Part shown: positions 9,772-10,873 of the stretch, piece by piece
How the letters are laid out: each line of letters begins with the position of its first letter
Position numbering within the stretch: the stretch's first letter is position 1
Assembly (NCBI GenBank): GCA_027365715.1
Contig: DAHXLZ010000176.1
Location: forward strand, 1 to 10,873
Direction: 5' to 3'
DNA length: 10,873 nt
Origin: Methanomassiliicoccales archaeon
Lineage (GTDB): Archaea > Thermoplasmatota > Thermoplasmata > Sysuiplasmatales > Sysuiplasmataceae
Made by a program: the position numbers and the translations under genes
The notes under the pieces: generated by a model
What the model was told of the DNA's origin: nothing
The model's database searches: none
What the model saw: the letters and a program-made list of their open reading frames with translations, nothing else

Positions 9772-10509
9772 ATGGAAACGGTCGAAAAGGAACCTAAAGT
9801 GATGAAGCGGATAAAAACACACATAGACGGTTTCGATGAAATGCTTGAAGGAGGGATACCTGCTGGATCAATAGTGCTGATCGCAGGAACGCCTGGTACA
9901 ATGAAGTCAACTGTTTCCTGCAATATTCTTTACCGTAATGCGATTGCAAAGGAAGCCCACGGTGTTTACCTGACTCTGGAACAGAGCAAATCCAGCCTTG
10001 AACAGCAGGCCAGACGCTTCGGTATGCACTTCGAAGCCACCGGCGACAGAATGAGAATACTTGATTTCGGTATTGTGAGAAGGAATCTGAAGCAGCTCAC
10101 TGCAAGGCGCAGCTGGCTTGAAGTGTTCAAAATGTTTGTCAATAATTTAAAGGAGAGCGCCGGTTTCGACTTTCTCGTAATAGACTCACTCGACGTTCTG
10201 GAGATCGCGGCACATCTTGAAAGCAGAAGGGACGAACTATTCTATTTCTTCGAATGGATGAAAGGACTCAACGCAACAATTATTCTGACTGCGGAATCAT
10301 CTACTGAACACCTCACTTCGGAAAATCGTGACGAAGCATATCTCGCCGACGGCCTCATTTCCCTGTCTATCCAGGAAATAAGTGATGTGGAAGCGCAAAG
10401 ACGCATCAGGTGCATAAAAATGCGTTCAACTAACCACAGCATGGATTCATTCACTTTTCTGTTCGAAAATCGGAAATTTATGGCTGTGAAGTCAATCTCG
10501 AAACCGTAG
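9772..10509 (+). CDS. RAD55/KaiC-like RecA-superfamily ATPase, single domain, altered Walker A
   Basis: A 245-residue, single-domain member of the KaiC/GvpD/RAD55 group of RecA-fold ATPases. In order: RIKTHIDGFDEMLEGGIPAGSIVLIAG (residues 13-39, the KaiC-like entry motif), the Walker A region GTPGTMKS (39-46), YLTLEQSKSSLEQQARRFGM (66-85, matching the catalytic-Glu region of KaiC), Walker B FLVIDSLD (134-141), then YLADGLISLS and RRIRCIKMRSTNH, the C-terminal core strands seen in this family. The Walker A has Met where the last Gly of GxxGxGK[ST] is expected, although Lys and Ser remain. Archaeal members are involved in signalling, motility or repair regulation; the partner here is not known. 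It is monocistronic and convergent with 16S rRNA. Confidence 0.85.
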   Translation: METVEKEPKVMKRIKTHIDGFDEMLEGGIPAGSIVLIAGTPGTMKSTVSCNILYRNAIAKEAHGVYLTLEQSKSSLEQQARRFGMHFEATGDRMRILDFGIVRRNLKQLTARRSWLEVFKMFVNNLKESAGFDFLVIDSLDVLEIAAHLESRRDELFYFFEWMKGLNATIILTAESSTEHLTSENRDEAYLADGLISLSIQEISDVEAQRRIRCIKMRSTNHSMDSFTFLFENRKFMAVKSISKP

Positions 10510-10739: not shown

Positions 10740-10873
10740 AGGAGGTGATCCATCTGCAGGTTCCCCTACAGATACCTTGTTATGACTTAGCCCCCCTTAC
10801 CAAGCTCCAGTTCGAGCTCTCCAAAAAGAGAACCCTCACTCGAACCCGACTCGGATGGCTTGACAGGCGGTGT
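10740..10873 (-). rRNA. rrs: 16S ribosomal RNA, 3' end only
   Basis: The last 134 or so nt of 16S rRNA (E. coli positions about 1396 to the 3' end); the rest lies beyond the window. Seen on the minus strand: ACACCGCC at the start of helix 44, the helix 44 return strand with GGGGGGCTAAGTC, AACAAGGTA, helix 45 with its GGGGAACC segment, and the anti-Shine-Dalgarno GATCACCTCC ending at 10741. The exact mature end is uncertain by 1-2 nt. Compared with E. coli numbering, 1404 is U and 1497 is A (normally C and G). Helix 45 pairs 1510-1525 and 1508-1527 also differ but stay paired. Confidence 0.98.

Follow-up and report, generated by a model that had tools for sequence, protein, structure and literature searches.

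Probable recurrent compensated replacement of the helix 44 pair C1404-G1497 by U-A in archaeal and bacterial 16S rRNA

INTRODUCTION

The canonical pair between positions 1404 and 1497 of 16S rRNA helix 44 (E. coli numbering) is C-G, and in the part of PMC3900107 available to us C1404 and G1497 are called universally conserved. The same text, citing Cunningham 1993, states that disrupting the pair impairs tRNA binding at the P and A sites. At position 1404, m5C is made by T. thermophilus RsmF and human NSUN4 according to the excerpts consulted. A natural pair change in the decoding helix that keeps pairing is described, again in excerpted text, for 1406C-1495G of Leishmania and Trypanosoma mitochondria, although this case concerns another pair in another compartment, where the usual state is U-U. 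Here we describe an archaeal 16S gene with U-A at 1404-1497 and follow this state across archaeal and bacterial genomes.

RESULTS

The 16S gene of the window

The window, that is, the whole 10,873-nt stretch of DNA analysed, holds just the final 134 nt of an archaeal 16S gene, the 5' part lying beyond it. Three features are used below:

10740..10873, minus strand: 3' end of the 16S rRNA gene (helix 44, helix 45 and 3' tail), from Rfam RF01959
10865, minus strand: U1404 (E. coli numbering), usually C, from the sequence, the Rfam alignment and comparison with E. coli rrsB
10783, minus strand: A1497 (E. coli numbering), usually G, the Watson-Crick partner of U1404, from the same three sources

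In the Rfam search, RF01959 matched window positions 10873-10740 with 113.7 bits (E 4.6e-30), above its gathering score of 50; the match covers model positions 1343-1478 and is cut at its 5' end only, by the window edge. Starting at 10873 the minus strand reads ACACCGCC-T-GTC, with the T at 10865, and around 10783 it reads AAGTC-A-TAAC, with the A at 10783. Opposite these two letters the RF01959 consensus has C and G, as do positions 1404 and 1497 of E. coli rrsB, the flanks of which are identical to those of the window. The C1404/G1497 identity of canonical helix 44 is therefore replaced here by U and A, with Watson-Crick pairing retained. Sequence, Rfam alignment and rrsB all agree with the letters, coordinates and 1404/1497 numbering given in the initial annotation, and with its statement that both sides had changed from the consensus C-G to U-A with pairing kept. 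In helix 45, the window pair 1510-1525 (10770 and 10755, minus strand) is likewise U-A where C-G is commoner.

The 16S gene (10740-10873, minus strand) and a KaiC-type ATPase gene (9772-10509, plus strand) converge, 3' end to 3' end. With one match at the gathering threshold, the Rfam search showed no 23S gene downstream of the 16S gene in the window, and given this convergent neighbour the 16S gene appears to be unlinked. We scanned ten ORFs of the window; among their products are ribosomal proteins L3, L4 and L2, a replication factor C subunit (RFC), serine hydroxymethyltransferase (SHMT), a PP-loop ATPase, the KaiC-type ATPase, a thioredoxin and a DUF302 protein.

Distribution of U1404-A1497 and the relatives of the window

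A pattern demanding U1404 and A1497, scanned against one genome per species (GTDB 220), matched at least 119 loci, spread over many phyla of archaea and bacteria; this number is a minimum, with no denominator to set it against. Among the matches listed, record titles place 31 in the archaea and 85 in the bacteria and leave 3 unplaced, and most of the records are titled MAG or uncultured. The archaeal phyla among them are Thermoplasmatota, Microcaldota (titled Micrarchaeota), Nanohalarchaeota and Aenigmatarchaeota, and the bacterial ones include Pseudomonadota, Bacillota, Omnitrophota, Chloroflexota and others. The U-A state is uncommon but recurrent.

The nearest to the window among the U-A matches listed are three Thermoplasmata bins (L052, L066 and L050), with 16S tails of 97-98.5% identity to that of the window. 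They have its gene neighbourhood in common (KaiC-type ATPase 64-65%, SHMT 76-78%, RFC 69-77% where covered), and all three, separately named, read T and A at 1404 and 1497. These bins were first found by the pattern demanding T and A, so that a close C-G relative would not appear among its matches; genomes G001 and G002, the latter being the genome of L066, were recovered again with 1497 left free. The G002 16S gene is full length (model positions 1-1478, 1495.8 bits). Since the same pair occurs in three bins with the same neighbouring genes, error is unlikely, in line with the argument against a sequencing error in the initial annotation. On the evidence of these sequences, U1404-A1497 in the window is very unlikely to be an error in one assembly and would be a real, compensated replacement of C-G.

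Joint states with both positions free

We searched six groups, picked for containing a U-A member, with 1404 and 1497 free and the flanks exact (ACACCGCC.GTC and AAGTC.TAAC). The site was held in 382 of the 1,039 genomes searched, comprising 297 with C-G, 85 with U-A and none with any other combination, hence no half-steps. Given how the groups were picked, 85/382 cannot be taken as a prokaryote-wide frequency, and because exact flanks were demanded, genomes with other flank changes are missed; site-holding genomes made up less than 53% in the five larger groups. The counts by group are:

Phylum of G002 (Thermoplasmatota): site in 203 of 389; U1404 in 15, each paired with A1497; C-G in the remaining 188
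Phylum of L031 (titled Micrarchaeota): 66 of 196; 59 C-G and 7 U-A, all read (L169-L198, L259-L293, L031)
Order of L102 (titled Ca. Enterousia): 43 of 190; 43 U-A
Order of L022 (titled Christensenella): 25 of 151; 23 C-G and 2 U-A
Phylum of L010 (titled Nanohaloarchaea): 6 of 28; 6 U-A
Class of L049 (titled Dojkabacteria): 39 of 85; 27 C-G and 12 U-A

The 188 Thermoplasmatota C-G calls combine a search for non-U1404 with non-G1497, which found none among the site-holders of this phylum, with the letters listed for 148 and 45 genomes. At least two of these 188 genomes have bacterial-looking 16S tails (G011/L152, and G210 at G210:C25:4243-4348), which points to mixing in some bins; two different 16S tails occur in G297. 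U-A is apparently fixed across the order of L102 (L199-L228, L319-L331), where one locus, L209, has a run of N between both sites.

The initial annotation had called the U-A pair unusual and had named its being common across Thermoplasmata as the finding that would speak against this. Counted over the Thermoplasmatota phylum, only 15 of 203 site-holding genomes have U-A, and C-G is usual in the group holding the window's relatives. The description stands to that extent, but U-A is no lone oddity, recurring through at least 13 changes on the archaeal tree (below) and in 43/43 site-holding genomes of one bacterial order.

Switches on the archaeal 16S tree

On a FastTree phylogeny of 151 archaeal 16S rows with the 1404 and 1497 columns masked, the pair state changed at least 13 times, with 13 changes forced by starred branches. 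Unmasked trees of 155 and 116 rows gave 13 changes (12 forced) and 10 changes (9 forced), respectively. The first of these trees to be built (116 rows) left out 35 long rows without the standard 515 motif and 96 bacterial rows; for the second (155 rows) the 35 were restored, minus eight treated as bacterial, shorter archaeal rows were added and duplicates removed, and the 151-row set is the second minus four long-branch C-G rows. FastTree is a quick method and its support values are SH-like, the tree does not fix the direction of the changes, and some U-A rows were taken from the pattern that demanded both U and A. With its 134 nt the window stands outside the tree and is placed through its relatives, of which L066 and L159 group in a U-A branch next to relatives with C-G on the 155-row tree. 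Even sister rows can be unlike in state, as in L190 (G476) versus L191 (G528) and L157 (G360) versus L295 (G380).

Control pairs and other 16S columns

The same 151 rows were read at control pairs, their positions set by fixed offset, and four pairs that vary compare as follows:

1404-1497: C-G 124, U-A 27, nothing else
1411-1489 (free in the pattern): C-G 90, U-G 52, U-A 9
1410-1490 (free in the pattern): G-C 72, A-U 69, G-U 9, C-G 1
1510-1525 (helix 45): C-G 118, U-A 30, C-U 2, C-A 1

Wobble is thus present at the free nearby pairs, as U-G in 52/151 rows (1411-1489) and G-U in 9/151 (1410-1490), and in 0/151 at 1404-1497. The missing U-G is not special to 1404-1497, however, as 1510-1525 is also without it. 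Two further pairs, 1409-1491 and 1412-1488, are free in the pattern yet invariant in the 151 rows, while the pattern itself dictates 1401-1501, 1405-1496 and 1407-1494, which makes them uninformative.

For associated columns we required a frequency difference of at least 0.35 between the two states, a filter that 14 column/base tests passed. Among these, columns 1404 and 1497 alone follow the switch in 12/12 independent pairs. Co-switching of the other 16S columns that passed the filter was rejected, the best of the 12 other tested states reaching a net of about 3 of 12 independent pairs. The helix 45 pair 1510-1525, which has 5 changes on the 151-row tree, is not tied to the switch either: it moves in the same direction in 1.3 of 12 independent pairs and shows no difference in 10.7. 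Mean 16S G+C is 0.543 in U-A rows (n=27) and 0.549 in C-G rows (n=124), and the independent-pairs test gave no trend.

DISCUSSION

We consider it likely that U1404-A1497 is a compensated swap that has recurred, at a site where Watson-Crick pairing is obligatory, and that function is kept. Read in this way, the U-A pair would be a compensated replacement of the helix 44 C-G pair in working 16S rRNA, at a position with the A-site decoding bases on one side and the P-site codon on the other, where selection appears to require Watson-Crick geometry and not pair identity. Lineages would cross from C-G to U-A, and perhaps also back, with the second change coming soon after the first and the intermediates being purged. 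Both bases are seen to differ, the switches are repeated on the archaeal tree, and there are no half-steps among the 382 exact-flank genomes. From this we infer an unchanged function, a harmful intermediate and a swap that would be near-neutral. The fixation of U-A in one order (43/43) and one phylum (6/6) could alternatively mark a selected state.

A broader reading, which we put forward tentatively and would back less readily than the compensated swap itself, is that 1404-1497 may be a two-state decoding-helix element in both prokaryotic domains, either C-G or U-A, that moves in double steps only and has whole orders fixed at U-A. The stiffness of the U-A form beside the P-site codon would then differ, and the remaining 16S would tolerate this without matching changes.

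An adaptive origin, in which U-A reshapes a groove bound by hygromycin B-like natural products and lowers their binding, seems improbable to us. The source excerpts at hand list 1403-1405 and 1494-1498 as the hygromycin B site, which includes both 1404 and 1497, and the repeated appearance of U-A in unrelated lineages fits selection, but no other tested 16S column switches too, although the pattern fixes the closest columns. In the same excerpts the site of the 4,5- and 4,6-linked aminoglycosides is given as 1407, 1408 and 1491-1495, so that the initial annotation, in suggesting that the pair may affect sensitivity to these drugs, was slightly off and hygromycin B is the listed ligand instead.

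We give about the same low credence to a role of methylation, according to which the switch follows loss of the m5C1404 enzyme (RsmF/NSUN family) and the unmethylated C frees the pair. The RsmB/RsmF/NSUN family, PF01189, was not found in any of the 40 Thermoplasmatota genomes tested (0/40), while it is present in 13/14 control genomes. This absence agrees with such a loss, but a PF01189 match is missing alike from the 16 U-A and the 24 C-G genomes among these 40. Within these Thermoplasmatota genomes, lineage-specific loss of the RsmB/F family as a correlate of the switch was accordingly rejected, as there was no match in either state. As a permissive background, missing methylation would be compatible with the compensated swap.

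Less probable still is a general A+T drift of the 16S that turns many C-G pairs to U-A. The window does have a second U-A in place of C-G, at 1510-1525, but the idea is already weakened by the similar 16S G+C of the two states without a trend in independent pairs, and by a pair 1510-1525 that moves likewise in just 1.3/12 of them. Finally, although the window edge cuts the 16S gene, a sequencing error, misassembly or pseudogene can practically be dismissed given that the identical pair is found in three separately named bins of the same gene order, in the full-length 16S gene of G002 and in L049, a record titled complete genome.

Recurrence of the compensated swap would mean that a pair lying between the A and P sites and described as universal is replaceable in nature, repeatedly, provided that both sides change. 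The natural U-A lineages may thereby serve as natural experiments on what the decoding centre needs near 1404-1497, and as a case of compensatory evolution crossing what is likely a fitness valley. There may also be a practical side. Against what we take to be the 1492R primer sequence, the window target (10788-10767, minus strand) has three mismatches, and against what is presumably the 1391R/1392F-type sequence, the target (10873-10862, minus strand) has one. Because the swap mismatches these primer targets, U-A lineages may be under-counted in amplicon surveys. In the excerpt of a review available to us, Jones et al. 2012 are said to have noticed 1392r and 1492r mismatches in Cuniculiplasma-type archaea, in which amplification succeeded despite them.

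We found no description of a natural U1404-A1497 pair in the literature searched, which included the available portions of PMC3900107, PMC3101183, PMC5774723, PMC6336744 and PMC7600485, and existing rRNA alignments are likely to show the substitution. Outside the close relatives of the window, the 16S of I-plasma (Thermoplasmatales archaeon, L030; L121/L162) likewise has U1404-A1497; it forms a separate branch on the 16S trees and has about 82% identity to the window over the tail. Compared with the canonical helix 44 pair, the window has the same position, Watson-Crick pairing and flanks (ACACCGCC.GTC and AAGTC.TAAC), and differs in being U-A instead of C-G. With U-A in the window and in 85 of 382 site-holding genomes (from six groups chosen for a U-A member), universal conservation of C1404 and G1497 is contradicted. 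U1404-A1497 thus corrects the 'universal' claim, yet it is not a new kind of system.
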